The position numbers and the translations under genes were made by a program. The notes under the pieces were generated by a model. The model did not search any database and was not told where the DNA came from. It worked only from the letters and a program-made list of their open reading frames with translations. From positions 1-23,037 of IMG/VR virus record IMGVR_UViG_3300035701_006050: a stretch of DNA of 23,037 nt, one strand, 5' to 3'. Of the stretch, positions 201 through 23,037 are shown piece after piece. Position 1 is the stretch's first letter. Each line of letters opens with the position of its first letter. The stretch is from a virus.

Positions 201-528
201 TTTCATTCACCTCATGCGTAAAATTTAAATTCCAAGTAATTGTAAGTGTATCGCCGGGAGTCACGTTAATAGGCCCCAGCTGTCGTGTGCGCGTGCCATG
301 CGATCTTAAATGAAGATCAATACTTTCAACTGCTTCTTCAGGTCCTATAGGAACATTCTCCATGGAAGTTGCACGTTGTAAAGTAACGGTTAAACCATCA
401 CTTGTGTCTAGTAGTTCACCAAGAATAGCATCGAGACATTCTAAACATCCTTCTCGCGTTTTTTCGTATTCCATTACAGCGCGAATATGCTCAACAAAGT
501 CGGCAAGACTTTTATATTCCTCTGGCAT
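142..528 (-). CDS. Hypothetical protein, 128 residues, downstream of queE
   Basis: Not recognised. I chose the ATG at 528, which has GGGGAT about 4 bases upstream and overlaps the end of queE by 17 bases. The longer reading from 588 would overlap queE by 77 bases and has no better ribosome site. The N-terminal half is helical with a Cys-x2-Cys (EGCLECLDAI, about residues 27-36). The C-terminal half is rich in beta-prone residues (ITWNLNFTHEV) and ends in an acidic tail. Co-transcription with queE is inferred from the overlap. A role in the 7-deazaguanine pathway is possible but nothing in the sequence shows it. Confidence 0.6.
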   Translation of the reverse strand: MPEEYKSLADFVEHIRAVMEYEKTREGCLECLDAILGELLDTSDGLTVTLQRATSMENVPIGPEEAVESIDLHLRSHGTRTRQLGPINVTPGDTLTITWNLNFTHEVNENDNLHRTGSEDWTEEDLLA

Positions 529-1192
529 CAAATCCCCACAAAATTTTATGAAATTGAGGCACCACTCGGATGTCTTCACTCTCGTCAAATTTCTTGTTAA
601 CTTCAGCGAGCAGGTCGAGGTATATCTTCACATAGGACTTGACAGTCTTATCTTTGCCCTCAACCCAAGGCATAATGTATGCGCGCTTCAGGCGAAATAT
701 CTTATACCATTTTCTAATTCTATCGACGTCCTCGGGGCGTCCCACAAACTTGAATGTGGCTCCCTGGACTGCCCAGTAAAAGTAAGAGTCACGGTTTTTA
801 TCATTAAGCATCCATGGCTTAGGAGATATCACAATGTGTGATGGCACAGCAACCATTGTTGGGTGAATAATCCCATTTGATTCAACGGTAACTTCGATCC
901 CATTTTGAATAAGATGCTTCATAAATTCATATAGATTAGGTTGTTCAAAGGGTTCACCGCCAGTAATGGTAACATGGCGGATTTTCTTTTCTCGGAGTTC
1001 TAAAACTAAGTTAGACGCATCGAGATGTTCTAAGGTAGCTGGGGGCTTGCCGTGGGAATACATAGTATCACACCCTGGACAGTTTGCACTACATCCAAAT
1101 ACTCTAACAAAATATGTCCGACGACCTAATTCGTCACCTTCGCCATTAATTGATTCAAATTTTTCAACTACATCTAATATTCTATTACTCAT
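512..1192 (-). CDS. queE: 7-carboxy-7-deazaguanine synthase (QueE), radical SAM
   Basis: QueE rearranges 6-carboxy-tetrahydropterin to 7-carboxy-7-deazaguanine (CDG), the committed step of the preQ0, queuosine and archaeosine routes. The radical-SAM cluster motif CX3CX2C is at Cys34, Cys38 and Cys41. The substrate-side motif ESINGEG is at 13-19, the SAM motif ITGGEP at 76-81, and the QueE-type PQFHKILW lies near the C-terminus. At 226 residues it has the normal length for the family. The start at 1192 has GGAGGT with a 6-base spacer and shares a TAATG junction with the Cas4-like gene, so the two are translationally coupled. Together with queD and folE2 in this window it completes GTP-to-CDG synthesis. 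Assignment is strong; use for DNA rather than tRNA modification is inferred from the DpdA-like gene. Confidence 0.93.
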   Translation of the reverse strand: MSNRILDVVEKFESINGEGDELGRRTYFVRVFGCSANCPGCDTMYSHGKPPATLEHLDASNLVLELREKKIRHVTITGGEPFEQPNLYEFMKHLIQNGIEVTVESNGIIHPTMVAVPSHIVISPKPWMLNDKNRDSYFYWAVQGATFKFVGRPEDVDRIRKWYKIFRLKRAYIMPWVEGKDKTVKSYVKIYLDLLAEVNKKFDESEDIRVVPQFHKILWGFDARGI

Positions 1193-1914
1193 TATGTTAC
1201 CTCCAAACTCGTATCGTTTGCGTAACAGGTGTCAGCCACCCCACACCAGACGCATGCGTTGGATTCTTTATCCCATTTCTTATCACGAATAGATTGCTTA
1301 ACATACGCTACCTTCTTTCGGGCAATATGTTCGTTAGAGGGTTTCTTAAAGTAGACGCCCGAAGGCAATTTTGTTCCATATAACTCTTTAGGAAATAACG
1401 CGCAAACGTAATCAATCTTTTGGTGTGTTACAAATTCATACAACACCTTATACATCATTAATTCCTGATTAATAGACGATTGAAATGAGCCAGACTTATA
1501 CTCAATAAGAATATTCTTTCCATCAACTCTATCTATTCGATCAATGATTCCTACGTCCAAACACCAATCGGGAGCATTCTCTGCTACTATTTTAGATTCA
1601 CGGACAATAGGAATAAATTCACTCTTGTTATTAAGAGTCATATAATGAACAGTTTGCATATGGGAAAAATGATCATAGACACTCCCTTCTCCTGGTAGCA
1701 AAGATCGAATATATCTTTCAATGCCATAAATAGATGTTTGATCAGCAAGTTCTTGCAGAGATACCCTATCAAAAAGTTTATTCGCTTGGTCGTGAAACTC
1801 GGACCCAGCACTCATCTCAGGTGTAGGTTCAAATCGTTGTCCTTTTTCGTATTGTAAATAAAAGGCATAAGGACACTTCAAATAGGCGAAGAGTCCTGAT
1901 TTAGATAATCTCAT
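1192..1914 (-). CDS. Cas4/RecB-like PD-(D/E)XK nuclease with Fe-S cluster cysteines
   Basis: A single-domain nuclease of the Cas4/RecB family. Visible motifs in order: the N-terminal LSKSGLFAYLKCPYAFYL segment with Cys14, His41 in GSEFH, Asp125 in GIIDRID, Glu138-x-Lys140 in IEYKSG, and the QxxxxY motif at Gln150 to Tyr155. Near the C-terminus Cys221, Cys224 and Cys230 (C-x2-C-x5-C) join Cys14 to form the four-Cys set that holds a 4Fe-4S cluster in Cas4 and AddB. Members cut single-stranded or end-resected DNA. With no cas1/cas2 or CRISPR array here, a role in viral recombination or end processing is more likely than adaptation. It is first gene of the queE unit, with a TATA box about 28 bases before the ATG. 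Confidence 0.88.
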   Translation of the reverse strand: MRLSKSGLFAYLKCPYAFYLQYEKGQRFEPTPEMSAGSEFHDQANKLFDRVSLQELADQTSIYGIERYIRSLLPGEGSVYDHFSHMQTVHYMTLNNKSEFIPIVRESKIVAENAPDWCLDVGIIDRIDRVDGKNILIEYKSGSFQSSINQELMMYKVLYEFVTHQKIDYVCALFPKELYGTKLPSGVYFKKPSNEHIARKKVAYVKQSIRDKKWDKESNACVWCGVADTCYANDTSLEVT

Positions 1915-1935
1915 AAATGTACATCTGCTTTATTA

Positions 1936-1949
1936 TTATTAAATATATT
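1936..1949 (-). promoter_or_regulatory. TATA box for the Cas4-like/queE transcription unit
   Basis: On the minus strand this AT-only stretch (AATATATTTAATAAT) is centred about 28-30 bases before the ATG at 1914. No ribosome site lies between, consistent with a leaderless archaeal transcript. It is placed just after the stop of the upstream glycosyltransferase gene. Confidence 0.5.
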
Positions 1950-1954
1950 GGTAC

Positions 1955-2815
1955 TTACGTTGAGAATATGTTAGAAACCTTCTTCCAGAAGACTACACCA
2001 GCCTGATCGAGAGCATGGACCCATTCATCGCGAGTTCTATAGGGGAAACTCATATTACCTACGTTTTGATTATAGATAATCTTGCATCCCATGAGAATTG
2101 CTTCAGTAACAGTCGCGGGGCACGGATCTAACATATGAGGAACGTGAATAAAGAATTCATGCTCTGCTAAGTAAGCCCATTTGTCTTCAATCTCACCAAG
2201 TATCTTAACATTTGGCGGAATAGGTGGTTTTACAAACCCGTTACGACCTGCAATATCGATCGTATAAGAAGGGTTTCTATCAGCTAATTGAATTACATCA
2301 TAGAGCCCTTTATATGCGCGAAGTGTTCCCAAAAAGGCGATTGACTTCTTCTTTCGTTCAACTTTGGGTTCAGGAACATTCTTAACTACCATTGTTAGAC
2401 AGCAGTCATGTTTAACTCTCCACCCTTGGAGGTGGGTCTGCTGCGCTCGCATATGCATAGGCGATTGAGACATTACAACACGCGCGTTCTCGAACATTTC
2501 TTTACAGAAAGGTGAGGTTTGTGCAGGGCAAGGAAGATCGCATCCTCGGCAGTCAATTAGATTGCGCTTCATACAATACCCGTAATCATGCTCTACTTTA
2601 ATATAGGGTAGTTTATCCACTATAGGGCGTAGCTGCGTCTCGGAGAAGCGTGTTACATTCTCAAGAATGAATGCGTCGTAATCACCATAGACGATTGTTT
2701 CGTCAGGTAATTTTAATTCAGCCTCAATATTAGAGGGCACATATTTTAGTCGAGATTTGATTGAAATTTCAGCGCCAGCGTATTCCTTAAAATCATTTAA
2801 TAGGGCTATCTTCAT
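1955..2815 (-). CDS. GT-B glycosyltransferase (GT4-like), short form
   Basis: It probably transfers a sugar from a nucleotide-sugar donor to a surface glycan or protein. The second Rossmann domain is clear: FLGTLRAYKGLYDVI near residue 160, then FIHVPHMLDPCPATVTEAIL, which holds the acidic donor-binding loop of GT4 enzymes (normally E-x7-E, here D-P-C-P-x4-E). At 286 residues it is shorter than typical GT4 proteins and lacks the usual final helices. The N-terminal domain carries five cysteines in about 25 residues (YCMKRNLIDCRGCDLPC and following Cys), suggesting a bound metal. The ATG at 2815 has GGAG nine bases upstream and overlaps the end of the zinc-ribbon gene. It belongs to the sugar-decoration block. 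Confidence 0.75.
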   Translation of the reverse strand: MKIALLNDFKEYAGAEISIKSRLKYVPSNIEAELKLPDETIVYGDYDAFILENVTRFSETQLRPIVDKLPYIKVEHDYGYCMKRNLIDCRGCDLPCPAQTSPFCKEMFENARVVMSQSPMHMRAQQTHLQGWRVKHDCCLTMVVKNVPEPKVERKKKSIAFLGTLRAYKGLYDVIQLADRNPSYTIDIAGRNGFVKPPIPPNVKILGEIEDKWAYLAEHEFFIHVPHMLDPCPATVTEAILMGCKIIYNQNVGNMSFPYRTRDEWVHALDQAGVVFWKKVSNIFST

Positions 2816-2951
2816 TTATTTCCGCTCCACATAAGGGACATATCTTTTGAGCCAAATTTACAGGGCTCGCTGCATAGTGGTTAAACCACATCCCACACTT
2901 AGGACATGAGTGGGCATAAAAACTTAAAGTGGTTACATTCATTTCGGTCAT
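2793..2951 (-). CDS. 52-residue zinc-ribbon protein
   Basis: A short gene between the methyltransferase and glycosyltransferase genes. The ATG at 2951 overlaps the methyltransferase stop (ATGA), and its own TGA lies 23 bases inside the next gene. The product contains HSCPKCGMWFNHY (Cys16, Cys19) and ICPLCGAEIN (Cys38, Cys41): a CPxCG-x18-CPxCG pair typical of a zinc ribbon. These knuckles and the coupling on both sides make it a confident gene despite its size. Function unknown; it could be a nucleic-acid or protein-binding adaptor. Confidence 0.78.
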   Translation of the reverse strand: MTEMNVTTLSFYAHSCPKCGMWFNHYAASPVNLAQKICPLCGAEINEDSPIK

Positions 2952-3580
2952 ATCATTTTCACATCCCAGAGGCCATGAAAGGTTGTTAATTCTTTTGCCC
3001 TACGGGTAATATATTCTTCTATGTCAAATTGAATTTCATTGCAAAATGGGGCTTGTGGGTCTGGAGGTACATAGATAAAACATCTATCACCAATACTCAA
3101 AAGCCAGTTTAGAGTCTTCTCGACTGATTCCGGAGGTAGCCGCTGGAGGGTATCCATTGATACTACGTAATCATAATGAGGAAGAGGTGCGGATAGTTCC
3201 GCATTTCGTCTTCTCATCCGCCAGAAAACAAAGTCAATGCAAAGAAGATTCATCTCTTCAATCGTTAGAGAAGCGGGATAGCGTTTCAGTAAAAGCGTTT
3301 CAAGTGTACCTATTCCTGCACCGAAATCAAAGACCGTCTTACTGCGTTCAACTCGACGCTTAATATAATCATAGAGAATTTCATAAAGGCCACTATCACG
3401 CGTCCTCGCTATCTCAAAAAGATAATAGGGGGATGCTTTATAGAACCACGGCTCATTGCATAGTTCGTCGAAGTAGGACGTATTAAACAGGTAGCTATTA
3501 TGTACATACTCATCAAACTTCGTATGATCTATACCAGTATAAAGGCGTAGTTCTTCGAAATCAGTTCGCATTAGTCTCAC
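2948..3580 (-). CDS. SAM-dependent methyltransferase-like protein
   Basis: The segment VFDFGAGIGTLETLLLKRYP is a Rossmann methyltransferase motif I (SAM-binding glycine loop). It is followed by a hydrophobic strand (YDYVVSMDTLQRLP), which resembles the post-motif region of class I enzymes. The substrate is not evident. Lying between two glycosyltransferase genes, it may methylate a glycan or sugar precursor. The annotated start is the GTG at 3580, coupled by a GTGA junction to the upstream gene. An in-frame ATG at 3571 is the alternative, and neither has an obvious ribosome site. Confidence 0.75.
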   Translation of the reverse strand: MRLMRTDFEELRLYTGIDHTKFDEYVHNSYLFNTSYFDELCNEPWFYKASPYYLFEIARTRDSGLYEILYDYIKRRVERSKTVFDFGAGIGTLETLLLKRYPASLTIEEMNLLCIDFVFWRMRRRNAELSAPLPHYDYVVSMDTLQRLPPESVEKTLNWLLSIGDRCFIYVPPDPQAPFCNEIQFDIEEYITRRAKELTTFHGLWDVKMI

Positions 3581-4755
3581 TTATATTGGGTAACTCTGTA
3601 AGGTGGGAAGTGCCCCTCTTGATCTAACTTTCGGAATAATGTATCCCACGCCGGGGCTATTATATCCCAATCATATTTCTGGGCAAATGCACATGCACGC
3701 TTACCGGTTGATTTAACTAACTCGGGATTATCTATTAACTTAATAAGAGTTTCCCCCGCTTTATCGTAATCGGGGATAGCAAGATATTGGTTTTTTAAAG
3801 TGTAAACATCTAATGCTCTTACGGGAATAAGCCAGCCGTGACCATCGGTAAGTTCCGTCATAGATGAAAAATCAGTACAAATTGCAGGAGTTCCACAAGC
3901 CATAGACTCTAATATGGGAATACCAAATCCTTCTCCTCGAGAAATATTAATAAGTACATCGAATGTGTTATACCACCCAGCCATCTCTTCTTCTGTAAAT
4001 GAAAAGGCCTGCGAGGGAAATAATAATCGATCTCTTGGAAGTCCTATGTAATCGGCAAGTTTCCACATATTATATCCACCCTGGGATACACCATCGATAT
4101 TTGTAACCATGATAACACGGAATTTTTTTCCTGCATCGTGTGCTTGCTTAAAAGCCATCATCATTTCTGATTGCCCTTTCCGCTTAGAAATGTTTGTGCC
4201 CACAAATCCAATAATAAATTCATCTTTGGGAATTTGGAATTTTTCTCGCCACTCATCTTTACTACCAGGCTTGTAGACTTTTGTATCAACACCGTGCGGA
4301 ATATACACACTACTTAGTCCCACTTTGTCGAGTTCTGTTTTAACATATTTGCACATTGCTACGCGTTCCGTAGCCGATGAAATTGCGTCAAACTCCTCAG
4401 GAGACGCTCTTCCGCCATCAATTGGCGAATAAGTAACAGAAACATATTCCCGAGCTATATCTTTAATGATATCTCGAAATGCCCAAGCGTCATTGTGAAA
4501 TAAGCAGGTATCAGAATTTGTTTCCTGCATAAGCTGTTTAAGATTCGGCATATATAGGTCACCCTTATTTCGTTCAACAGTTTGACCTGGATAATGCTTA
4601 ATGCCACCCCACTCAACAAACGGACCACTATTAATTCCGCCCGTTGTAATGACCACTTTTTGTTCTGGATATTTTAACCGAGTCATAAATTCGCGTGTGA
4701 CTTTTCCATAGCCCGTATTTGCCCACATTGGAGCTGAGACCCATGCAAGTTTCAT
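3577..4755 (-). CDS. Glycosyltransferase family 4-like protein
   Basis: A full-length (392 residues) GT-B enzyme. The N-terminus MKLAWVSAPMWANTGYG is a typical acceptor-domain start with a Gly-rich loop. IGFVGTNISKRKG opens the donor domain near residue 180. RGEGFGIPILESMACGTPAI (about residues 273-292) is the GT4 E-x7-E donor-binding signature. It transfers a hexose or similar sugar from a nucleotide donor, retaining the anomeric configuration as known for the family. The start at 4755 has AAGGTG with an 8-base spacer, and a TATA box lies about 44 bases upstream, leaving room for a short leader. It heads the unit running through the methyltransferase, zinc ribbon and short glycosyltransferase. 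Confidence 0.9.
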   Translation of the reverse strand: MKLAWVSAPMWANTGYGKVTREFMTRLKYPEQKVVITTGGINSGPFVEWGGIKHYPGQTVERNKGDLYMPNLKQLMQETNSDTCLFHNDAWAFRDIIKDIAREYVSVTYSPIDGGRASPEEFDAISSATERVAMCKYVKTELDKVGLSSVYIPHGVDTKVYKPGSKDEWREKFQIPKDEFIIGFVGTNISKRKGQSEMMMAFKQAHDAGKKFRVIMVTNIDGVSQGGYNMWKLADYIGLPRDRLLFPSQAFSFTEEEMAGWYNTFDVLINISRGEGFGIPILESMACGTPAICTDFSSMTELTDGHGWLIPVRALDVYTLKNQYLAIPDYDKAGETLIKLIDNPELVKSTGKRACAFAQKYDWDIIAPAWDTLFRKLDQEGHFPPYRVTQYK

Positions 4756-4792
4756 AAACCATACACCTTAAGATAGGCTAGGAAAGGGATTC

Positions 4793-4806
4793 AATAAATA
4801 TAAAGG
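4793..4806 (-). promoter_or_regulatory. TATA box for the glycosyltransferase/methyltransferase unit
   Basis: The minus strand reads CCTTTATATTTATT, centred about 44 bases before the ATG at 4755. Initiation about 26 bases downstream would leave a leader of roughly 19 bases containing the AAGGTG ribosome site. This makes it an exception to the leaderless pattern in this window. Confidence 0.5.
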
Positions 4807-4813
4807 TTGTGGG

Positions 4814-5752
4814 TTAGAACAAGTCAGCGTATTTGTTTAATAAAAGAGCATAATATTTTAGCACATCTTCATACGTGAGCTCTTCAACCACGCGCCGCCC
4901 TGCGTTCTGAATCCTGTCGTAGGCTGTTGGATCAGCCTCAATTAAATCAAATCTGTTAAGCATATCTTCTATGGTGCCATCAAATTCGATATAATTAACA
5001 TCGGGTTTCATTAAGTCATACCAGAATTCGCGGTGAACTAATGGTTCGGAAAATACAACACTATTGCATGCCAGAATATATTTTAGTCTACCAGAGTGTG
5101 CCTGATTATTTCTCCCTTCCAGGTGTAAAAGATATTTATATTTAGCAATATATTCATACGGCAAGAAGTGATTATTTGTAGCACTTATTGATTGTTCCGT
5201 ACCATCTGGCAGTTTGATACGCTGTGTTTCATTTGTCTGCATCTTCGTATGCCAGAATTTAAATCGAGAGTCGTTGAGTTTCAGATATTTATCTCGCGCG
5301 GTATGAGAATCGCCAGCAAAAAAAATCTTAGGATAATCTTTTGAGGTGAGATTAAGTAAAAGCATCTTCTCTCGCCATTCTTTCCAGCAACCCATATTCA
5401 CTTCACTATAATCAAAAAACGTAAAATCGGGAATAAGAAAATTTTTTGAGCCCTTAGCCTTTCCCACAATAAATAAAGGAGAGTTGGGTGTAAACGTGAT
5501 TTCATCTATAGTAATAACAAAGTCACAATCTTTTACTGTGTGTCGCTTTAAGACTTCACGGATTAATCCAGCTGTTTGTTCATTACGGTTCTTAAATTCA
5601 TTCTGATGACTAAGCAGTCTGAGGGTATTACCTTCTATTCTAAAATATAGCCACATATAGTTACTAAGACAGGTTACAAGATCCGTCTTAGTAATACGTG
5701 GCCAGAGCTTTATCTGATCGTCGACTGCTTTTGCAATGAATGCAGAATCCAT
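4814..5752 (-). CDS. GT90/CAP10-like glycosyltransferase
   Basis: It resembles the CAP10 domain (glycosyl transferase family 90) found in LPS-modifying proteins and protein O-glucosyl/xylosyltransferases. Family-like segments in order are KIFFAGDSHTARDKYLKL (usual form FFRGxxT...R), then LHLEGRNNQAHSGRLKYILA and NSVVFSEPLVHREFW. The latter two match the family's G-x-xxSxRLKYLLxxxSVVL...EFF core. At 312 residues it is close to the minimal domain. It starts 7 bases after the stop of the cohesin-dockerin gene, so that secreted protein is an attractive but unproven substrate. There is no signal peptide, so it acts in the cytoplasm. Confidence 0.78.
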   Translation of the reverse strand: MDSAFIAKAVDDQIKLWPRITKTDLVTCLSNYMWLYFRIEGNTLRLLSHQNEFKNRNEQTAGLIREVLKRHTVKDCDFVITIDEITFTPNSPLFIVGKAKGSKNFLIPDFTFFDYSEVNMGCWKEWREKMLLLNLTSKDYPKIFFAGDSHTARDKYLKLNDSRFKFWHTKMQTNETQRIKLPDGTEQSISATNNHFLPYEYIAKYKYLLHLEGRNNQAHSGRLKYILACNSVVFSEPLVHREFWYDLMKPDVNYIEFDGTIEDMLNRFDLIEADPTAYDRIQNAGRRVVEELTYEDVLKYYALLLNKYADLF

Positions 5753-5759
5753 ACTATAA

Positions 5760-6440
5760 TCACGTCATATGTGAAGCTACAACAGCAATATCAAGGACGT
5801 TTATTTTGCCGTCTTTAACAACATCTTGGGCAATCCATCCAACTGTGCCAGTTTCACCATAATGCCCCGCAACTGATGTGATATCAAGTAAATCAACAAT
5901 ACCGTCACCGTTTACATCCCACATATTCTGGGTTGCTACGGTAGTATTGGTAATAGTAACCGGAACATATGCTGATGCATTAGTAATCATATTTTTATTA
6001 TTAAAGGGGCCATAAATAGTAATCGCACTAGATCCTGCTGCTTTAACCTTAAATTGGATACTCACTAACTGACCAGGTGTTGAAACTAATCCAGCGCCTA
6101 CAATAAGACCATAGATATTTTTCACATATCCACCTGTATTGTTAATGATACCAGCGTTAAAAAACGTTTGATAACCCGTAAATATATTCCCTTCCGATAC
6201 TTGCATACATTGCAAATAGGCAGGATTATAGGTTATTTTAAATTCATAGGCCTTAATGGGCGTTCCTGGTGTGCACATCACATTCACATTAAAGTAGTCT
6301 CCTATAAAATAGGGCCCCGTAGTGGGAACGAGACTTATTGCGGTTGATGGGGGTGCACCAGGGGTCATCATAAATGTGGCAACTACTGCAAGAATAGCTA
6401 TAGTAGAAACGCCCCCTGTGACAACTGTTTTGGTTTGCAT
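5760..6440 (-). CDS. Membrane-anchored or secreted cohesin-dockerin protein
   Basis: An extracellular protein with a hydrophobic N-terminal signal or anchor (GGVSTIAILAVVATFMM, about residues 9-25). A cohesin-like beta-sandwich follows (about 38-150; YFIGDYFNVNV and AYEFKITYNPAYLQ are typical strands). The C-terminal type I dockerin (about 170-226) has two calcium loops, DVNGDGIVDLLD and DVVKDGKINVLD. Cohesin-dockerin pairs dock proteins into extracellular complexes. Having both modules on one chain would permit self-association or binding to host cohesin/dockerin proteins. I use the ATG at 6440 rather than the TTG at 6449, because a TATA box lies 32 bases before it. The GT90 gene follows directly. 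Confidence 0.85.
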   Translation of the reverse strand: MQTKTVVTGGVSTIAILAVVATFMMTPGAPPSTAISLVPTTGPYFIGDYFNVNVMCTPGTPIKAYEFKITYNPAYLQCMQVSEGNIFTGYQTFFNAGIINNTGGYVKNIYGLIVGAGLVSTPGQLVSIQFKVKAAGSSAITIYGPFNNKNMITNASAYVPVTITNTTVATQNMWDVNGDGIVDLLDITSVAGHYGETGTVGWIAQDVVKDGKINVLDIAVVASHMT

Positions 6441-6466
6441 AGATATCAATTATCTACAATGAGATG

Positions 6467-6479
6467 CATAAATATAAAG
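6467..6479 (-). promoter_or_regulatory. TATA box for the cohesin-dockerin/GT90 unit
   Basis: The minus strand reads CTTTATATTTATG, centred about 32 bases before the ATG at 6440. The 100-base gap to the divergent fibre gene holds this box and, on the plus strand, AAATATT at 6511-6517 with GGAAGGG at 6519-6525. The plus-strand promoter is less clear. Confidence 0.5.
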
Positions 6480-6540
6480 ATTCGTGCGTCGACCCGAGTC
6501 ATAAGATATTAAATATTAGGAAGGGCGAGAATATGATGCC

Positions 6541-8031
6541 ATGGGCAGGATACGCGGCAAACGGATGTTCTATGGCAATGGCAGACCTATTCGTGTTGAT
6601 TCAAATTGTTTAGCAGAGTTCAATTTTAACGAGGGAACCGGTTCAATTACAGCAGACGCCCAGGATTGGAGTACTAAAGTCGCAACTATGAAAAATGAGG
6701 TTGTGTGGACTACACCAACCGCAGATGAAAAATCTTCTATTGAAATACTACAAACTGGTATATGGGGGAAAACCGCAACACAAGTTCGACCGCCATATAT
6801 ACCTACACTTGATGGTGCAACAAACTATATTGATTGCGGGGTATTTGACGGATTTGCGTTTTCGTTTGCGCTTGAAGTTAATTTTACAATAGCCAGTTTT
6901 AGTACATCTACGGCAAACGCTTTCACATTGATAGCAGGAAAATGGGATGAAGTTGCGGGAAGAACGTTTGGTTTAGTATTATGCACTACTGTTAATGGGG
7001 GAGACTTAAATCAAGTAGGCATAGTTATGAATGATAAGGCAACAGATAAAACTTATTTGGGCGCCGTATCTGTAGAAGAAGCTATTACCGCAGGAGAATG
7101 GTATAGTGTTAGATTAAATTACTTAGATGGAGTGCCTGAAATAATCATTAATAGCGTTGCTAAGGATGTTAATGATGTATATAACACGCCGCCAATAGAA
7201 CTTACGGATAATGACACGGTTCCAATAACAGTAGGCGCAGCCCTAGCGAGTGGAAGTCCTGTATTGCCCACTCCCATAAAGGTTGCAACTGCCACTTATT
7301 ATAAACGCCCACCTGAATCTGGCGGAAATTATGCAACCCATCGCCGGGTATCCCGTTCATTCTCTGATAATATTATTGGATGGTCTACCACACAAAGTAT
7401 CCTTAATCAACACCAATACCTTAGTGAAAATATAGTAGAAACATCCGCTATTCAGTCAATGCCCGGAGATCATCACCATTTCATCCGATCAATGTACGAA
7501 TCAATAGTTGGAACGGACACTCGATCTAGAAACACCAACATAAGGCGTACTTATGCAGACCCCATTACAATGAACGCCGTGGGAAACTCAGATTTAGGGT
7601 CTGATACTTTTAGCCGTCTTCTATATGAGACGATGATTGGAACAGATACTCTAACCCGATCAATATGGCACAATTCCCAATCTGGATCAGCTCCACACTC
7701 AGAATCAGACATATTAACATCAACAATGGTTCGTAAAATAAAGAGTGCTAGAACGCCGGCACAATCTGCATATGTATCCGATACAATGTCTTCATCAAAA
7801 TGGCACTCGACTATGGCTGGTCATAATTACTGGCAATCCGAAATATTAACAGATATTATGACTTCTACTATAACCGGACATGCCGCCCCAATACAATCAC
7901 AAATTATCACATTATCTTCAACAGCCACTCCATCATTATTCCATACTACCGCGCCAAGTAGTAACTGGCATGGTGATACAGAGGTATTAACAGCAATGCT
8001 AACTACTCACTTAACTACTACTTATTCGTAA
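6541..8031 (+). CDS. LamG/ConA-like domain protein with C-terminal repeats, candidate viral fibre or adhesin
   Basis: The first half (about residues 20-256) has the LamG/concanavalin-A sandwich pattern: LAEFNFNEGTGS, TNYIDCGVFDGFAFSFALEV, a central strand with LIAGKWDE, then AGEWYSVRLNYLDGVPEIII. This fold commonly binds glycans. The second half (about 270-496) is built from imperfect repeats of about 43-45 residues rich in Ser, Thr, His and Asp, as in tail fibres. There is no signal peptide or membrane segment, which suits a virion component better than a secreted host protein. The ATG at 6541 is the only start after a stop at 6517. The 3' end overlaps the convergent polymerase gene by 10 bases. 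Virion location is inferred. Confidence 0.75.
   Translation: MGRIRGKRMFYGNGRPIRVDSNCLAEFNFNEGTGSITADAQDWSTKVATMKNEVVWTTPTADEKSSIEILQTGIWGKTATQVRPPYIPTLDGATNYIDCGVFDGFAFSFALEVNFTIASFSTSTANAFTLIAGKWDEVAGRTFGLVLCTTVNGGDLNQVGIVMNDKATDKTYLGAVSVEEAITAGEWYSVRLNYLDGVPEIIINSVAKDVNDVYNTPPIELTDNDTVPITVGAALASGSPVLPTPIKVATATYYKRPPESGGNYATHRRVSRSFSDNIIGWSTTQSILNQHQYLSENIVETSAIQSMPGDHHHFIRSMYESIVGTDTRSRNTNIRRTYADPITMNAVGNSDLGSDTFSRLLYETMIGTDTLTRSIWHNSQSGSAPHSESDILTSTMVRKIKSARTPAQSAYVSDTMSSSKWHSTMAGHNYWQSEILTDIMTSTITGHAAPIQSQIITLSSTATPSLFHTTAPSSNWHGDTEVLTAMLTTHLTTTYS
7348..8028 (+). repeat. Imperfect protein repeats (about 43-45 residues) in the fibre-like gene
   Basis: Segments RSFSDNIIGWSTTQS (residue 272), RSMYESIVGTDTRSR (316) and RLLYETMIGTDTLTR (359) recur at 43-44 residue spacing. 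A second recurring element is Trp-His followed by an acidic (S/T)E(I/V)LT segment, at residues 376, 421 and 477. At DNA level the copies have diverged, so this is a structural repeat rather than recent duplication. Confidence 0.65.
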
Positions 8032-10559
8032 GATTCTTCTTCCTCTTCTTCTTTGTCCTTTTTAATTGGGCGCTTAGAGCCATAGAGTGCAATCCTTTCT
8101 TCTTCTGTAACGCCAAGGGCATTGAGAATAGTATCAACCTTATTATAAACTACTTTCTCAAGTTGCGTTGGAATATCAACATATGGCCGCCAGATCTCTG
8201 GGGGAGCCTTCCGAAACGCCACTCTATCTGCAATATAAAATTTAGTGACAAAGGAATTCTCTTTCGGTGACCATGTCCACAGAGAGAAAGTCTGCGGAAG
8301 CCCCTCAGGTAAGATGGGTCGTTCCGAAAAGCCAAACGCTTTCTTTTCCTCCTTAACCAGATGGTCTGTCTTAATATAATATTCTAACGGACGAGTGCCT
8401 ACCTCAATCTTCTGCTCCAAGTATTGGTTAGCATATACAATAGCCTTAATCCGCGCCACATTTTTCATGGCCTTAATATCTGTCTTTAGCGGCAGAGGGA
8501 TTCCTATATCATGAAGCGAACGATTGCTTGCGATTAACGCGAAGGATTCAATGAATTTAACGATAGTCTCATTTCGATCGAACTGATGTATCATTTTGAA
8601 TAAAGATCGCTGTAGCTCTACGGAAACAACTGCACTATCACTGCGCCGAGTCTCAAATCCCACTATCTTAATCTTAGGTTCACACTCAACGCCATTATCA
8701 CATATGATCTCAGCCGAGTAACGTTTCTTCTTTGCTAGCATAAGAGACTTAAAGGCGTGTTCTAGTTTTGTACCTGGCGCCATATGAAGGCCATACTCAC
8801 CCTTAATATCTTCCCAGAATTTATTTACAGAGGAGTTCATCCATTTACCAATTTCAATAGTAAGTAGAGTATCAAGGGCGTCACAATGATCATCATCGGT
8901 AAACAAGGTCTTTAACATTATATATCTATTAAAATCAACCGCAAAATACATTCCATCTGTATCTGTGTACAGCGCTTCCGCGCCGAATGTATCAGATACG
9001 AATTGGATGGTGCGCTTCGCTAGCTGCTGGCCTTGCCCCGTCATAGAGGCAGATAAGTAGGGCTGAAATAATCTAAACTTTGGGTACGCAAACACGCCGT
9101 ACATAGCATCAAGAACTACTTTAAGAGCATCCTGTCGGTGCCAGAGTAGTTCATACTCGGAAGAATCACGGGGTAATGCAAACGCTTGCTTTTGAACATC
9201 GGTTCTCAATTTAATAAGATCGCGCGCTACCTCAGAAAGAAACCCAGCTGGCTCCTTTAGATAGTATACTTCTTTCCACTCAACGTATGGCTTGCCCTCT
9301 TCATCTTTATATTTGAGTCCAATGGGTAATGTATAGTGAGGTTCGAATGGTTTCGCAGTGCGCAGTGTTTCCGGGGATATATTATAAGAGATAAGAATAC
9401 TGGGATACATTTTAGTAAAATCAAGTAGAACAACCCATCTATGAACTCCCTTTACGGGCTTTAGAACAATGGCGCCAGTATAGTCAAGTCGCTGTTGCCC
9501 CTTTGGCTTACGCGGTAGCAGAAAACGACCACTAGCATATCGCAGAAGAAACACATCAACATATTTTGCCGCTTCCATTACCTCTTCATAGGTGCATCCC
9601 ACTACTTGCCTGATACTATCATAAAAGGGAATAATCTGAAGTTTTTCCTCCATCATTTGCATACGTAGAATATCTCGCGTATTGTAGTCGGCGATATCGT
9701 CTATGTATGAGCGATTCATTTTTTCTAAAGGAAATTCTTCCGCAAGCACCCCCACTTCGTCTTCAGCTACATCTTTAAGATTATAAGAGGGCAGGGTACG
9801 ATGTTTATATTTTTTATAAGCAGGCAGGTAGTCAAAAACATTGCGCCCTGATATTATTACTTCTTCATATTCATCGGGAATACGGACCTTCCCTAGTGGG
9901 GAAAGGCGCGTATAGTCGAGTTGATAATGCTTCATTCGGTTAACGACTGTAGCCATATCAAAAAACACATTGTAGGCAGTAAAGACGTCGGGATCGAACT
10001 CTTCAACTATGTCTAAGAATAGACTGAGGAACTCTTTTTCCTCTTCTTCGTTGGTTATTTCAAATCGCCACTGTGCGATATTGCCTTCAATGGGAACCCA
10101 AATCGATACGCATAAAATCAGCCACTTGGCAATTCTGGGCTCAGGAAAAATATCCGGGTCAGGTGTTTCGACTTCAATATCAAGGAAGAGTGGTAATACG
10201 GCGCCTCCTTTGTAGTCGGCTGGTACTACTTTCCCGTCCTTGATATCAAAGCCATATCTTATGCCTCGGTCGACAAGGAATCGAATCGGAAACAATACAT
10301 CCGATTCATATGTGAATTGATGACCTTCCCTTAGACGTGATACATCACTGGGAAGTTGGGTCTCGACTTTGGTTGCGGGGAAGCCGTCGATTCCCTTAAC
10401 AGGATAATTGCCTCGCACTTTATCCTGGTAATAATAATATGACTTAAAGCCTTTTACGTTAAATACCTTTCTGGTGTGTGCTTCATCGCGGGCAAAGAGA
10501 TATATTACTGGTTCGCCCTTCTCTACTTTATAGTCAATCGCTGTTAATCCGTACACCAT
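8022..10559 (-). CDS. polB: Family B DNA polymerase with 3'-5' exonuclease
   Basis: Replicative polymerase, 845 residues. Exonuclease motifs: ExoI LDIEVETP (Asp127, Glu129), ExoII YNVFFD (196-201), ExoIII YNTRD (Tyr292, Asp296). Polymerase motifs: A with LLDFTKMYPSI (Asp380), B with KVVLDAMYG (Lys480), C with YTDTD (531-535), and the KKRYSAEI thumb-side motif. All catalytic acids are present, so both activities should be intact. In motif B the usual Asn before Ser-x-Tyr-Gly is Asp484. The C-terminus is an acidic tail rather than an obvious PCNA-binding box. The ATG at 10559 follows a T-rich leader and a TATA box 28 bases upstream. It is apparently monocistronic and convergent with the fibre gene. 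Confidence 0.95.
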   Translation of the reverse strand: MVYGLTAIDYKVEKGEPVIYLFARDEAHTRKVFNVKGFKSYYYYQDKVRGNYPVKGIDGFPATKVETQLPSDVSRLREGHQFTYESDVLFPIRFLVDRGIRYGFDIKDGKVVPADYKGGAVLPLFLDIEVETPDPDIFPEPRIAKWLILCVSIWVPIEGNIAQWRFEITNEEEEKEFLSLFLDIVEEFDPDVFTAYNVFFDMATVVNRMKHYQLDYTRLSPLGKVRIPDEYEEVIISGRNVFDYLPAYKKYKHRTLPSYNLKDVAEDEVGVLAEEFPLEKMNRSYIDDIADYNTRDILRMQMMEEKLQIIPFYDSIRQVVGCTYEEVMEAAKYVDVFLLRYASGRFLLPRKPKGQQRLDYTGAIVLKPVKGVHRWVVLLDFTKMYPSILISYNISPETLRTAKPFEPHYTLPIGLKYKDEEGKPYVEWKEVYYLKEPAGFLSEVARDLIKLRTDVQKQAFALPRDSSEYELLWHRQDALKVVLDAMYGVFAYPKFRLFQPYLSASMTGQGQQLAKRTIQFVSDTFGAEALYTDTDGMYFAVDFNRYIMLKTLFTDDDHCDALDTLLTIEIGKWMNSSVNKFWEDIKGEYGLHMAPGTKLEHAFKSLMLAKKKRYSAEIICDNGVECEPKIKIVGFETRRSDSAVVSVELQRSLFKMIHQFDRNETIVKFIESFALIASNRSLHDIGIPLPLKTDIKAMKNVARIKAIVYANQYLEQKIEVGTRPLEYYIKTDHLVKEEKKAFGFSERPILPEGLPQTFSLWTWSPKENSFVTKFYIADRVAFRKAPPEIWRPYVDIPTQLEKVVYNKVDTILNALGVTEEERIALYGSKRPIKKDKEEEEEESYE
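10256..10274 (-). repeat. 19-base motif, copy inside polB
   Basis: The minus strand reads GTCGACCGAGGCATAAGAT, coding for part of VDRGIRY in the polymerase. It differs at one base from the copy at 18992-19010 on the same strand. Related plus-strand copies lie at 6488-6507 and 18089-18107. Confidence 0.5.
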
Positions 10560-10603: not shown

Positions 10604-10792
10604 CTATTTCGCTTTAAAGTCTTTACAGGTACCGAAACAATTTTTAACCGCCGGTCGTGTAACATCTATCTTTCTAAAATAAGTATAGAAGTACAGTCGT
10701 ATTGGTCCACTGCAATCCTCGGTTTTTAATCGCTGAAGGATTGTAGCATCGTTTCCAGGCACGTAATATTTACATTCACTACATACTACCAT
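10604..10792 (-). CDS. 62-residue Cys-rich protein
   Basis: A small soluble protein with Cys4-x2-Cys7 (VVCSECKYY) at the N-terminus and Cys27, Cys52 and Cys56 later (KNCFGTCKDF), probably zinc-binding. The start is the ATG at 10792, with GGAGGT and a 7-base spacer. The longer reading to 10807 would begin at a TTG overlapping that ribosome site. It is the last gene of the unit that contains the DpdA-like gene. Its layout recalls the 69-residue Cys protein at 19885-20094. Function unknown. Confidence 0.72.
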   Translation of the reverse strand: MVVCSECKYYVPGNDATILQRLKTEDCSGPIRLYFYTYFRKIDVTRPAVKNCFGTCKDFKAK

Positions 10793-10816
10793 ATTAGTTA
10801 CCTCCAATATTGATAA

Positions 10817-11551
10817 TTATTCATCTGGTACATAACCTTCTTGGTGGTAGAGCTGCTGATATTTTCTAATACGACGGCTAATTATAAATGTATTCCAGAA
10901 GGTGTCGGGTAAGAACAAATCAAATTTTTGATCGTACTTTGGTTTAAAGGGCACAGAAGTATCGAAACTTCTTACAGGGTAGTCATATTCGGCAAGCTTA
11001 TCTATTTCCTCCTTATAGAAGCCTAAGAAGTGTATCTCAACATCGGGATATTTTTTTTTGATAAACTTAAGCATAATATCTCGACTCTTTGCCCCTAGCA
11101 TCTTGGGTAAATCAATTACATCTACTTTAAGAGTGACTAATTTATCTAAGCATTTTGTTTTTTCAACAAATTCGGTTCCATGAACTGCGCCGTGAATAAC
11201 GAAGTCATCGCGACATTTCTGCTTCTTGAGATATGATATAAATTCTTTAGTTAGTTCAACCGTTTTTACTCCTGAGAGATCATCCGGGGCAATGATTTCG
11301 TCGCAGTTAAGTATTTGCGCCCAGGACAAAAGTTCGTCATTCGCAACCATATTGCCTTCCCAAAGTCCGTTATCTATAATTGTATGTAGATGTGGATTGC
11401 TTAGATAGAAGGTCTTGTATTTATCGCTCGCATATAAATGAGGGGCAATGATCATATGAAAAGCCCATTTATTCATCATCTCCAGATAGTTCTCTGGCGG
11501 TATTGCGAACCATTTGGCTATATTAATCACCTCGGTAAATTTGGTTTTCAA
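10817..11551 (-). CDS. dpdA: TGT/DpdA-like 7-deazaguanine transglycosylase (candidate)
   Basis: A compact TIM-barrel-like protein whose motifs follow the order of tRNA-guanine transglycosylases: IIDNG (58-62, for DSGG), IIAPDD (86-91), VIHGAVHG (118-125, for VQGG), VIDLPKML (145-152), IHFLGF (173-178, for YLMGVG) and SFDTSVP (195-201, for FDCVLPTR). Asp197 would be the nucleophile. At 244 residues it lacks the C-terminal zinc site of TGTs, as do the phage enzymes called DpdA that exchange guanine in DNA for a 7-deazaguanine. folE2, queD and queE in this window support that role. The start is uncertain: the TTG at 11551 has no ribosome site, whereas GAGGTGA at 11527-11533 sits five bases before an in-frame ATA at 11521. 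Family assignment is by motif only. Confidence 0.68.
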   Translation of the reverse strand: MKTKFTEVINIAKWFAIPPENYLEMMNKWAFHMIIAPHLYASDKYKTFYLSNPHLHTIIDNGLWEGNMVANDELLSWAQILNCDEIIAPDDLSGVKTVELTKEFISYLKKQKCRDDFVIHGAVHGTEFVEKTKCLDKLVTLKVDVIDLPKMLGAKSRDIMLKFIKKKYPDVEIHFLGFYKEEIDKLAEYDYPVRSFDTSVPFKPKYDQKFDLFLPDTFWNTFIISRRIRKYQQLYHQEGYVPDE

Positions 11552-11693
11552 TTATAAGTGATTTCTTATTAAGAATGGTTACCACATTATAATACTTTCC
11601 GTTGTGATATTTTCTTTCCGGCAGCAAACGCATTCTATACATAACTGGTCGCCCAAGGATGATGTTCCAGATAATACGCAATTTTCTCTTCAT
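11523..11693 (-). CDS. 56-residue basic hypothetical protein
   Basis: The ATG at 11693 follows AGGAG with a 7-base spacer and lies one base after the upstream stop. A longer reading from a TTG at 11741 has no such support. The product begins MKRKLRIIWNIILGRPVMYR: a basic start followed by a short hydrophobic helix, then a beta-prone segment (YYNVVTILNKKSLIIEN). Its last codons contain the GAGGTGA ribosome site of the following DpdA-like gene. No family recognised; possibly membrane-associated. Confidence 0.6.
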   Translation of the reverse strand: MKRKLRIIWNIILGRPVMYRMRLLPERKYHNGKYYNVVTILNKKSLIIENQIYRGD

Positions 11694-18993: not shown

Positions 18994-19010
18994 CTTATGC
19001 CTCGGTTGAC
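18992..19010 (-). repeat. 19-base motif, copy at the ribosome site of the helical-protein gene
   Basis: The minus strand reads GTCAACCGAGGCATAAGAT and is followed directly by G to give the start codon of the next gene. It contains that gene's GAGG site. It is one base different from the polB copy at 10256-10274. Confidence 0.5.
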
Positions 19011-19888
19011 TTGTCTTTCCATGTGTTTCTTTTTTTAAGCGTTCTTTTGATAACCTCTTCCGAGGTATATTTTGGATGCCACCCTTCTGCTTTCGCTTTG
19101 GTGATATCCATATAGGTAATCGGAACATCTCCTGGCCATCCTCCTTCGCCACCCGTATATGCGGTTTGGGTTGGATATGTTTTCATGTGCTTGAAGATGA
19201 CTTCTGTTAAGCCATCAACGGATATGTTATCAGCTCCACTTAGATTGTATACCTCAGCGTCATTTGTCTGTATCTTTTCGGGAAATAATGTAAGTGCTCT
19301 TATACAATCCGATACATCCATATATGATTTTCGTTGTTGTCCGTCGCCAAGGATTTCCAGATTGGCGGGGTCTGCTTCTAACTTTCGTGTGATATCATAG
19401 ATGGCGCCTCCGGCGAGATAAGGACCGGCGACGTTGGCAAAGCGGAATATCCATCCCTTAATACCGTACAGGTGGCAGTAAGAACGGATAAATGCTTCCC
19501 CTGTGATCTTGCTTGCAGCATAATGTGATATAGGATTCGTCGCTGCTGTCTCGGGAGTAGGCATCTGCTGTGCTTTTCCATACACCGATGATGATGATGA
19601 AAACACTATCTTCTTCACGTCATTGCGGCGGATCCATTCTAAGAGTGTTAATGTACCCGCTACATTGTTATGATACATTTTCGCAATACTAAAAAAACTC
19701 TCTCGGATATCAGATGTTGCTGCCAAGTGGTATACTATATCCACCGGTTCACGGGGATACGCATCTTGATGATAAATATCATTTCCCTCTACGAGATCCA
19801 TTCCTATAACTTCAACTTTTTGGCTTTCAAGGTACTTTTTAAGATTTGTTCCTATGAAGCCGCGGTGTCCTGTGACGAGTGCTCTCAC
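18995..19888 (-). CDS. NAD-dependent nucleotide-sugar epimerase (extended SDR)
   Basis: An extended short-chain dehydrogenase/reductase of the UDP-glucose 4-epimerase group. It has the NAD-binding TGHRGFIG (6-13), DIVYHLAA, FSSSSSVYG (catalytic Ser/Thr strand) and active-site Tyr-x3-Lys in HYAASK. FRFANVAGP and the GDGQQRKSYMDVSDC region match NDP-sugar binding. It likely interconverts or oxidises a nucleotide sugar feeding the glycosyltransferases in the window; the exact sugar is not readable. At 297 residues it is slightly short. The start is a GTG at 19888 with GGAGG 8 bases upstream and a GTGA junction, which supports the unusual start codon. Confidence 0.92.
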   Translation of the reverse strand: MRALVTGHRGFIGTNLKKYLESQKVEVIGMDLVEGNDIYHQDAYPREPVDIVYHLAATSDIRESFFSIAKMYHNNVAGTLTLLEWIRRNDVKKIVFSSSSSVYGKAQQMPTPETAATNPISHYAASKITGEAFIRSYCHLYGIKGWIFRFANVAGPYLAGGAIYDITRKLEADPANLEILGDGQQRKSYMDVSDCIRALTLFPEKIQTNDAEVYNLSGADNISVDGLTEVIFKHMKTYPTQTAYTGGEGGWPGDVPITYMDITKAKAEGWHPKYTSEEVIKRTLKKRNTWKDKSTEA

Positions 19889-20105: not shown

Positions 20106-20471
20106 TTACCAGCTCTCTTCAGCCCATGAGGTTGGTGTTTCCCAGATACGTATACGAGTAATCTGAATTGCTGGATTATCCCACACGCTGTCCAGTTGAA
20201 TTTTTAAATATCCCACTAGATTTTCAGCGGTGGGGTTCTTATTATAGCTGCGGAGACCCCGTAATTCATTTAAATACTTGTGGTCGAATGACACTAAATT
20301 AACGGTGTCCTTGAGCTCGTGAAAATCTATAACCATACCGTGGCTATCAATATCTCCTTCGACTTCTATTTCGACCTTATATGTGTGTCCGTGGAGTTCT
20401 GCACACGGTGATGTATAGGGGAGTATTAGTTTATGTGCTGCGTCCCATTGAAAAATTTTACACACTTTCAT
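20106..20471 (-). CDS. queD: 6-carboxy-tetrahydropterin synthase (QueD)
   Basis: QueD converts dihydroneopterin triphosphate to 6-carboxy-5,6,7,8-tetrahydropterin, the substrate of QueE. The zinc ligands are His13 (DAAHKL), His27 and His29 (LHGHTY). The catalytic Cys23 lies in C-x3-H-G-H, the spacing typical of QueD. Asp63-His64 (FDHKYLN), NPTAENL and the C-terminal WET segment complete the active site. At 121 residues it is a normal QueD. The ATG overlaps the preceding gene's stop (ATGA) and follows GGAGGAG. Use for archaeosine/queuosine-type tRNA or DNA modification depends on the other enzymes; the DpdA-like gene favours DNA. Confidence 0.94.
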   Translation of the reverse strand: MKVCKIFQWDAAHKLILPYTSPCAELHGHTYKVEIEVEGDIDSHGMVIDFHELKDTVNLVSFDHKYLNELRGLRSYNKNPTAENLVGYLKIQLDSVWDNPAIQITRIRIWETPTSWAEESW

Positions 20472-20866: not shown

Positions 20867-20964
20867 TATATTGCTCCTTTATCAAAGCAGGTTGTGCAGA
20901 CATATCTACCGAACCATCTTATGCATTCGGCATTGTTTCCACACACACTACACTTTTCTTTCAT
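20866..20964 (-). CDS. 32-residue zinc-finger protein
   Basis: A tiny gene between the UDG gene and the acidic protein. The ATG at 20964 overlaps the UDG stop (ATGA) and its TAA overlaps the next ATG (TAATG). The product has Cys5-x2-Cys8 (KCSVCGNN), Cys14 and Cys23-x2-Cys26 (VCTTCFDKG), a compact zinc-finger layout. Tight coupling on both sides makes it credible despite its size. Confidence 0.68.
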   Translation of the reverse strand: MKEKCSVCGNNAECIRWFGRYVCTTCFDKGAI

Positions 20965-21611
20965 CGTTTGAACCCCTTATAAATGTTGTGGAGGATTTCA
21001 AAGTCACTATCCAGGGAGTCGATAAGTGTGCGATTGTAAAGTGCAGCAGCAGGATGATATGTAGGTAGTAAGATTAAGTTGTTTGTGTAGCATGTCATTC
21101 CATGTGTGCGCACCATATCCATTGGTCTAGTTACGTTATACATATCAAACACCAGGGTAGTAGCTGTTTGCCCCAAAGTTACAATTACTTTGGGATTGAT
21201 TAACTTTATTGTTTGTTCTAAATATTTGCGGCATGCAAGTGTTTCGATTTCAGTGGGGGAGCGATTGCCGGGTGGTCTACAGCATATACAATTGGTAATA
21301 AAATAAGAATCAATAGGAAAATGATATTTATTGAGTAGGGAATCTAAAACTTGTCCTGCCGCTCCTACAAATGGCATACCTTGTAAATCTTCATTCTTAC
21401 CGGGCGCCTCTCCTATAAAAAGAATTCGCGCGGTAGGGAACCCTCTTCCGTGCACTTTATGCGTTGCTGTTTTGCCTAATGCACACTCTTGGCATTGTTG
21501 GATAGTGTCATTCAGCGCTAAGAGCTGTCTTACCTTTTCTGAACAGTCATCACATACTCCCGTCATAATACTCAAGTCCTTGTATCGCTGCCAACATTTT
21601 AAGCAGAACAT
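20961..21611 (-). CDS. Family 4 uracil-DNA glycosylase with an N-terminal zinc knuckle
   Basis: It removes uracil from DNA in base-excision repair. Family 4 motifs: GEAPGKNED (67-75), TNCICCRPPGNRSPT and TYHPAA (184-189). The Fe-S cluster cysteines are Cys40, Cys43, Cys111 and Cys127, with the spacing seen in thermophile UDGa enzymes. The N-terminus adds two further pairs (FCLKC, Cys3/Cys6; VCDDC, Cys20/Cys23), a probable zinc ribbon not found in the minimal enzyme. Archaeal family B polymerases stall at uracil, so a UDG beside a viral polB makes functional sense. The start at 21611 has a TATA box 29 bases upstream. Confidence 0.94.
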   Translation of the reverse strand: MFCLKCWQRYKDLSIMTGVCDDCSEKVRQLLALNDTIQQCQECALGKTATHKVHGRGFPTARILFIGEAPGKNEDLQGMPFVGAAGQVLDSLLNKYHFPIDSYFITNCICCRPPGNRSPTEIETLACRKYLEQTIKLINPKVIVTLGQTATTLVFDMYNVTRPMDMVRTHGMTCYTNNLILLPTYHPAAALYNRTLIDSLDSDFEILHNIYKGFKR

Positions 21612-21646: not shown

Positions 21647-21653
21647 GCGGGTT

Positions 21654-21988: not shown

Positions 21989-22022
21989 TTGTGTTCCACC
22001 TTACACCACTATGTTAAGCCAG

Positions 22023-22232: not shown

Positions 22233-22253
22233 ACTATTCAATATAAATGGACT

Positions 22254-22266
22254 GATTTATATAGAT
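22254..22266 (-). promoter_or_regulatory. TATA box for the UPF0339 gene
   Basis: The minus strand reads ATCTATATAAATC, centred 28 bases before the ATG at 22232. A second AT-rich element (CCATTTATATTG) lies nearer, at 22239-22250, but is too close to the start. Confidence 0.6.
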
Positions 22267-22296
22267 TGCGTTCTTGCGAAGAGTTAATCAAAAACA

Positions 22297-22305
22297 TTTA
22301 TATAT
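22297..22305 (+). promoter_or_regulatory. TATA box for folE2
   Basis: TTTATATAT is centred 27 bases before the folE2 ATG, with no ribosome site between, indicating a leaderless transcript. Confidence 0.65.
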
Positions 22306-22327
22306 CTTTAAACGTCTCTCGATTTAT

Positions 22328-23037
22328 ATGGTAGATGTGGCAAAACAAACCGATAAGCGGGGCGTTTTTTTAGACGAAGTAGGCATAAGTGACCTTTTGC
22401 TACCTATTTGGGTAGTTGAACGTGAATCTGGCAAAGATCAGCATTCAATAGGCACATTTGATGTTTCCGTTGCGTTGGCAGATAATATTAAAGGTACTCA
22501 TATGAGTCGTATAATGGAAGCAATTTACGTCTATGCAGGTTCAATTAGCCAAAAGCAATTGCTTAATATGGCACTCGGACTTAAAGTAAAGCTCGAAGCG
22601 TCTGCTTGCAGAATAAGAGTTAGATTTCCTTATGCGGTTACTAGACTATCACCTATTTCTAAATTGGAAAATCAAATGGTGTTTCCGTCATGGTTCGAGG
22701 TTATCTGGAATGACGATTTGACATTTCAATTAGGAACAGAAGTAGATGTAATGACAGTGTGCCCTTGCGCCAAAGAGGAATGCGGTAATGGTAATAGTCA
22801 CGTTCAACGTGGCACCATCAATATCAGCGTATCCCCGAAACCAGGTAAGTGGATATGGCTCGAGGAACTTATTGAGATTGCAGAGCAGTCAGGTTCATCT
22901 CCTGTATATGATAGATTAAAAAGGCCTGATGAAAAGCAAGTGGTTCTCAATGGATTTAAAAACCCAAAGTTCGTTGAGGACATAGTTCGCGATGTGGTGG
23001 TTGCGTTGCAAAAGAGAGATGATATTGATGGGTATCG
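22328..23037 (+). CDS. folE2: GTP cyclohydrolase FolE2/MptA family, 3' end outside the window
   Basis: It opens GTP to dihydroneopterin triphosphate (FolE2) or its cyclic phosphate (archaeal MptA), the entry step to 7-deazaguanines as well as folate or methanopterin. About 236 residues are visible with no stop. Family motifs are GTHMSR (56-61), VCPCAKEECGNGNSHVQRG (144-162, with the metal-binding Cys145 and His158) and SSPVYDRLKRPDEK. The ATG at 22328 has a TATA box 27 bases upstream. With queD and queE it completes the route to CDG, so a biosynthetic role for base modification is favoured over cofactor synthesis. FolE2 and MptA cannot be told apart from these motifs. Confidence 0.93.
   Translation, partial: MVDVAKQTDKRGVFLDEVGISDLLLPIWVVERESGKDQHSIGTFDVSVALADNIKGTHMSRIMEAIYVYAGSISQKQLLNMALGLKVKLEASACRIRVRFPYAVTRLSPISKLENQMVFPSWFEVIWNDDLTFQLGTEVDVMTVCPCAKEECGNGNSHVQRGTINISVSPKPGKWIWLEELIEIAEQSGSSPVYDRLKRPDEKQVVLNGFKNPKFVEDIVRDVVVALQKRDDIDGY

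Follow-up and report, generated by a model that had tools for sequence, protein, structure and literature searches.

Does a 23,037-base fragment of an uncultivated tailed virus genome, the IMG/VR virus record IMGVR_UViG_3300035701_006050 (hereafter the window, meaning its full length), encode a pathway that would replace guanine in virus DNA by a 7-deazaguanine, and is a 244-amino-acid protein encoded at positions 10817 to 11551 the enzyme that would insert the modified base? An earlier note, made from the sequence, had proposed both, naming folE2, queD, queE, and a DpdA-like transglycosylase gene. We consider the best explanation, and a probable one, to be that the virus encodes a pathway for modifying its DNA with 7-deazaguanine and that the insertase is a compact, divergent DpdA; the DNA modification itself is a prediction. 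Support comes from family matches, a DpdA hidden Markov model, a predicted barrel of the tRNA-guanine transglycosylase (TGT) type, and the retention of all four genes in a distantly related virus. The four open reading frames (ORFs) lie where the note had placed them:

22328 to 23035, + strand: folE2 (GTP cyclohydrolase IB), cut by the contig end (PF02649, NF010200)
20106 to 20471, - strand: queD (6-carboxytetrahydropterin synthase) (PF01242, TIGR03367)
512 to 1192, - strand: queE (phrog_2076, TIGR03963, PF04055)
10817 to 11551, - strand: compact DpdA/TGT-like transglycosylase, 244 amino acids (NF041059, profile alignment, AlphaFold2 [AF2] model)

Precursor biosynthesis genes

QueE, QueD, and FolE2 are clear members of their families, with active-site motifs. 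FolE2 has a GCHY-1 domain (PF02649, E = 4.1e-61; 207 bits, cut-off 25) and scored higher with the FolE2 model NF010200 (180 bits from a truncated gene; cut-off 215) than with MptA (120 bits). The motifs CPC...HVQR and LKRPDEK are visible in its translation, and the reading frame is still open at the contig end, leaving ~20 to 30 C-terminal residues absent. QueD (121 amino acids) has a PTPS domain (PF01242, E = 3.2e-30; 105 bits, cut-off 22) and the active-site residues C-x3-HGH (CxxxHGH), DH, and E; its match to TIGR03367 (E = 1.8e-22) reached 79.5 bits against a cut-off of 89. For QueE (226 amino acids), QueE models were the top NCBIfam and PHROG matches (TIGR03963, E = 2.3e-27; phrog_2076, E = 3.4e-34), below the NCBIfam equivalog cut-offs, while PF04055 exceeded its own cut-off; the radical-SAM motif CSANCPGC (CxxxCxxC) and GGEP are both visible, as expected of a QueE. 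The pathway up to 7-carboxy-7-deazaguanine (CDG) is encoded within the window. The description of these as three consecutive biosynthetic genes holds for the order of the pathway steps but not for the map, on which they are dispersed.

Sequence evidence for a probable divergent DpdA

The product of 10817 to 11551 is a member of the TGT/DpdA superfamily. The profile search that the earlier note had suggested (hmmscan) matched the NCBIfam DpdA model NF041059 to residues 97 to 207 at an E value of 4.8e-7, better than the proven phage DpdAs: the same model gave E = 0.0022 for CAjan, whose DpdA has been shown by genetics in the literature to be essential for modification, and E = 0.018 for 9g, and it did not match the proteins of phage 7-11, Rosebush-type (Coffee), and nt-1. 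Pfam returned no match for the 244-amino-acid protein, nor for the 7-11 and phi3ST:2 DpdA proteins. Because known phage DpdAs score lower or not at all, silence of the family models is normal for viral DpdAs, and the curated cut-off of NF041059 is ill-suited to them. A six-frame search of the window with NF041059 passed over the gene at its initial filter. Direct scans for relatives of the protein found none, with short peptide patterns that miss divergent proteins, and searches of PDB sequences with phmmer and with a two-row profile yielded chance matches only.

Alignment of a profile of ten DpdA/TGT-like sequences with the window protein and its orthologue from a related virus (see below) extended over 131 columns (P = 9e-4). 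Its score of 31.6 compares with a maximum of 22.2 (26 columns) in 200 column shuffles, 12.6 for the reversed sequence, and at most 17.2 for nine decoy pairs of unrelated proteins from the window and the relative. In this alignment, IDNG, APDD, AVHG, IHFLG, and FDTS fall on D-S-G, the LD/PD loop, xxH, IHGLG, and D-S-S. The motifs singled out in the earlier note (IDNG, HG...HG, and FDTSVP) are indeed present, located where predicted beta strands reach their C-terminal ends, and correspond to the D-[SN]-G, xxH, HxLG, and D-[ST]-S motifs of phage DpdAs. Two aspartates, D60 (IDNG) and D197 (FDTS), match the invariant Asp residues of phage DpdAs and of the relative's orthologue. The DpdA histidine is present as H124 (AVHG), which aligns with the phage xxH and is kept in the window, the relative, and a third virus described below (L111).

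With three scattered cysteines and no C-terminal domain, the protein has neither the Tgt/TgtA zinc site (CxCxxC...H) nor the PUA domain of the archaeal enzymes, in keeping with DNA, and not tRNA, as its substrate. Absence of a zinc site had been put forward as a mark of divergence; none is seen, but this is no peculiarity, as the compact DpdAs of phages such as 7-11 also lack one. We likewise reject the idea that 244 amino acids is unusually small, given DpdAs of 234 (phage 7-11), 240 (phi3ST:2), and 247 (a gut phage) amino acids. The start codon is uncertain: the frame opens with TTG at 11551, and the relative's protein starts ~10 residues later. Near that point, the window (11480 to 11560) has a Shine-Dalgarno-like GAGGTGAT followed by an in-frame ATA.

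Predicted structure

An AF2 model was built on an alignment of three rows, namely the window protein, the relative's orthologue, and part of the L111 TGT-like protein. It reached a predicted local distance difference test score (pLDDT) of 69 and a predicted template modeling score (pTM) of 0.72, with seven clear strands and alternating strands and helices, i.e., a TGT-type (beta/alpha)8 barrel in which D60, D90, H124, and D197 lie at or beside the ends of successive strands. Comparison with solved structures, the check originally proposed, bore out a barrel of the TGT/DpdA type. The top VIA-align match was the DNA preQ0 insertase DpdA (PDB 7ui4; Z = 13.6, root mean square deviation of 2.9 A, 181 residues); TGTs of bacteria and archaea came next, with Z values of ~11. 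Foldseek returned four PDB matches at E values of ≤0.001, three TGTs and the DNA preQ0 insertase DpdA, with E values of 8.7e-6 (TGT) and 4.2e-5 (DpdA). The leading BFVD matches include a Cellulophaga phage phiST protein and mycobacteriophage proteins annotated as queuine tRNA-ribosyltransferase.

Related viruses and gene neighborhood

Three further features of the window bear on the setting of these genes:

8022 to 10559, - strand: family B DNA polymerase (PolB), beside the DpdA-like gene (phrog_262, E = 7.7e-105)
10604 to 10807, - strand: 67-amino-acid cysteine-containing ORF between the DpdA-like gene and PolB (ORF only; Pfam and NCBIfam scans without a significant family match)
1192 to 1914, - strand: Cas4/PD-(D/E)XK-like nuclease, overlapping the queE start (PF12705, E = 4.9e-14)

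PolB alone as a scan query found no relative, a PolB alignment as query found one, and a second PolB scan and an MCM-like scan found no further family member. The relative, IMGVR_UViG_3300005098_000013 (78 kb; pieces L015, L098, and L101), has a PolB with 32% identity in the best segment and 35% overall (L015, E = 6e-103). It carries FolE2 (L015/L098, E = 3.5e-25), QueD, QueE, and a 237-amino-acid orthologue of the 244-amino-acid protein, which has 28 to 30% identity to it and adjoins PolB, as in the window. Retention of all four genes in so distant a virus speaks for a function in common. A Cas4-like nuclease adjoins queD-queE in the relative too (L015 orthologue, E = 3.8e-14), and the two viruses also share ERCC4 nuclease genes and MCM-like, RPA-like, and P-loop ATPase genes, the last three named by eye on weak or absent family matches. 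The relative has terminase, portal, and capsid-type genes and is therefore a tailed virus. The hosts are probably archaeal, judging from the Hef/XPF nuclease, the family-4 uracil-DNA glycosylase, the genes of RPA-like and MCM-like type, and a PolB that resembles those of haloarchaeal viruses.

The relative encodes a second DpdA-like protein, of 517 amino acids (L101:8280-9833, - strand), in which a C-terminal DpdA-like domain follows an N-terminal region with a nucleotidyltransferase-like appearance by eye (GGIVNHGSTTGDIDIL). Its motifs are LDNGAFS, EIHALGV, and NSVDSMSY, and its gene sits between the portal gene and the gene for a 1200-amino-acid protein with an ATP-dependent DNA ligase domain.

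A third virus, L111 (IMGVR_UViG_3300020171_000021; 67 kb), carries FolE, QueD, QueE, and a 459-amino-acid TGT-like protein with a CxCxxC zinc-type motif (2983-9839); no QueC was found in this 67-kb record. There is more than one solution among such viruses, the L111 set being different.

Two side observations concern the relative. Its 1200-amino-acid protein (L101:4356-7958, - strand; virion-gene module) combines a ligase domain (PF01068, E = 7e-14) with a weak LigD-phosphoesterase-like stretch and is probably a fusion. Its MCM-like (L015:1464-3011, - strand) and P-loop ATPase (L015:6029-7915, + strand) genes contain long in-frame insertions with intein-like ends, which the window versions lack.

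Proposed pathway and the points against it

In the proposed pathway, FolE2 would convert GTP to dihydroneopterin triphosphate, from which QueD would yield 6-carboxytetrahydropterin (CPH4) and QueE would yield CDG. QueC would then give preQ0; it could be a host enzyme, or its gene could lie beside folE2 in the sequence that follows the contig end. The 244-amino-acid protein would swap guanine in DNA for the 7-deazaguanine by a TGT mechanism, with D197 as the predicted nucleophile and D60 as the predicted general acid/base. We infer DNA, not tRNA, as the substrate. The inserted base is most likely preQ0 or a derivative, direct use of CDG being the alternative, and by analogy with phages (Hutinet et al. 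2019, PMC6884629) the modified genome would most likely resist host restriction enzymes.

As for the source of QueC, in the relative it is encoded directly downstream of FolE2 on the same strand (E = 9.5e-63). Since the window folE2 runs off the contig, a queC behind it would be invisible; gene order around folE2 differs between the two viruses, however, which makes a queC just past the contig end a possibility rather than a prediction. QueC is present in all four archaeal control genomes, and a host enzyme is also possible.

Several results weigh against this explanation. QueC and QueF were looked for in the 23-kb window and neither was found, in a fragment too short to decide the matter. The NF041059 match reached 29 bits against a curated cut-off of 200, and tblastn found no relative of the 244-amino-acid protein among 50,697 phage records; with this protein as the sole query, sequence searches led to no named phage. 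Where DpdA has its GGxxG-like segment for base recognition, the sequence is changed, reading DLPKMLG in the window protein and VGFPNKAA in the relative. AF2 failed with the 244-amino-acid protein alone (pLDDT 36), and the L111 row, a clear TGT relative, may have steered the fold of the three-row model; with this in mind, the sequence evidence serves as independent support. A phage DpdA profile gave 35 bits for the 517-amino-acid protein and 4 bits for the 244-amino-acid type, and, with a second DpdA-like protein in the relative, the compact protein may not be the sole or main insertase.

Alternative explanations

The last point leads to the chief rival, which is also the question of greatest interest: the 244-amino-acid protein may be an additional TGT-superfamily enzyme with a job of its own (e.g., a different 7-deazaguanine, a removal step, or sequence-specific insertion coupled to replication), bulk insertion being left to a canonical DpdA encoded at another place in the virus genome. 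The relative encodes two such proteins, the 237-amino-acid orthologue beside PolB and, next to the portal gene, the DpdA-domain protein of 517 amino acids; the compact type has an altered base-recognition segment, and the window covers only part of its virus genome. We nevertheless regard this as unlikely, as both predicted catalytic aspartates are kept in the window and the relative, the window protein matches the DpdA model NF041059, and no second DpdA copy was seen in the window. A related proposal, which we hold to be only slightly less doubtful, is that the lineage has two TGT-superfamily enzymes, a canonical DpdA-domain protein in the virion module and a new compact, replisome-coupled subfamily beside PolB, which would divide the work by base, by site, or by stage (installing versus removing or proofreading).

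The biosynthetic genes are identical for tRNA and DNA modification, and the pathway could instead boost 7-deazaguanine (archaeosine or queuosine) in host tRNA. Such a role has been discussed for phages with preQ0 genes but without DpdA (Hutinet et al. 2019, PMC6884629), and QueC is carried by the archaeal control genomes. Here, however, the TGT/DpdA-like gene adjoins a DNA polymerase, its product has no visible tRNA-binding or zinc elements, and the biosynthetic set has stayed together with it in two distant viruses, leaving the tRNA explanation improbable.

That the 244-amino-acid protein is an unrelated TIM-barrel enzyme with coincidental motifs, as its lack of Pfam and tblastn matches and the middling structural matches that the common TIM barrels give might suggest, is already disfavored and highly improbable, since NF041059 does match, the collinear motif alignment exceeds shuffles and decoys, TGT and DpdA top the fold searches, and known phage DpdAs such as that of 7-11 also go unmatched in Pfam.

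Comparison with known systems

Taken as a divergent DpdA, the window protein shares with phage DpdAs its superfamily, the D-[SN]-G, H, HxLG, and D-[ST]-S motifs, and its compact size (Hutinet et al. 2019, PMC6884629); several phage DpdAs are likewise accompanied by preQ0-pathway genes, and phages with FolE-QueD-QueE-DpdA sets are precedents (same reference). It differs in being too divergent for a tblastn match, in its GGxxG-like segment, and in its place next to PolB, in a virus whose replication genes are of archaeal type. The bacterial DpdA (PDB 7ui4; NF041059) is both the best solved structural match and the best profile match, but has ~410 residues, and no other part of the bacterial dpd cluster was seen in the window. 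DpdA2 of Vibrio phage nt-1 has 464 amino acids; the DpdA His, whose absence is one mark of DpdA2, is present in the window protein, although nt-1 also has HG there by eye.

Among whole gene sets, that of Mycobacterium phage Bipper (KU728633) is similar in having a GTP cyclohydrolase, QueD, QueE, and DpdA without QueC, but has FolE instead of FolE2, genes adjacent in one run, and a bacterial host. The archaeal tailed viruses of Druskaviridae (HVTV-1) and HRTV-29 encode a preQ0 pathway and/or a DpdA homologue, and preQ1 was found in HVTV-1 DNA (PMC8651126, PMC6884629). HVTV-1 has the pathway without a recognized DpdA and HRTV-29 has DpdA without the pathway, whereas the window has both together, with FolE2.

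Other genes in the window

Decoration with glycans is suggested by a run of glycosyltransferase and methyltransferase genes (1955-5752, - strand), one of them for an enzyme of the GT90 family (PF05686, E = 7e-26), along with genes for a SIS sugar isomerase (11888-12421) and an NAD-dependent epimerase (18995-19888). A secreted-looking protein (5760-6449, - strand) combines a cohesin domain (E = 1e-10) with a type I dockerin domain (E = 1e-7), which seems unusual for a virus; its gene adjoins one on the + strand for a 496-amino-acid protein without family matches. A family-4 uracil-DNA glycosylase is also virus encoded (20961-21611, - strand; TIGR00758, E = 2e-50).

Significance

Viral 7-deazaguanine pathways, compact DpdAs (234 to 247 amino acids), QueC-less sets (Bipper), and archaeal-virus examples (Druskaviridae, HRTV-29) were already known. 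Three features are new: a divergent DpdA subfamily encoded next to PolB, the use of FolE2 instead of FolE (FolE2 matched only 3 of the 50,697 phage records), and the joint presence of precursor genes and a DpdA-like gene in this lineage. The predicted pathway would add an undescribed lineage, one with replication genes of archaeal type, to the viruses that modify their DNA with 7-deazaguanine. That ordinary searches miss this DpdA subfamily suggests that DpdA is under-annotated in viruses, and possibly in archaea, and HVTV-1, with modified DNA and no recognized DpdA, would be a candidate in which to search for a hidden enzyme of this sort.

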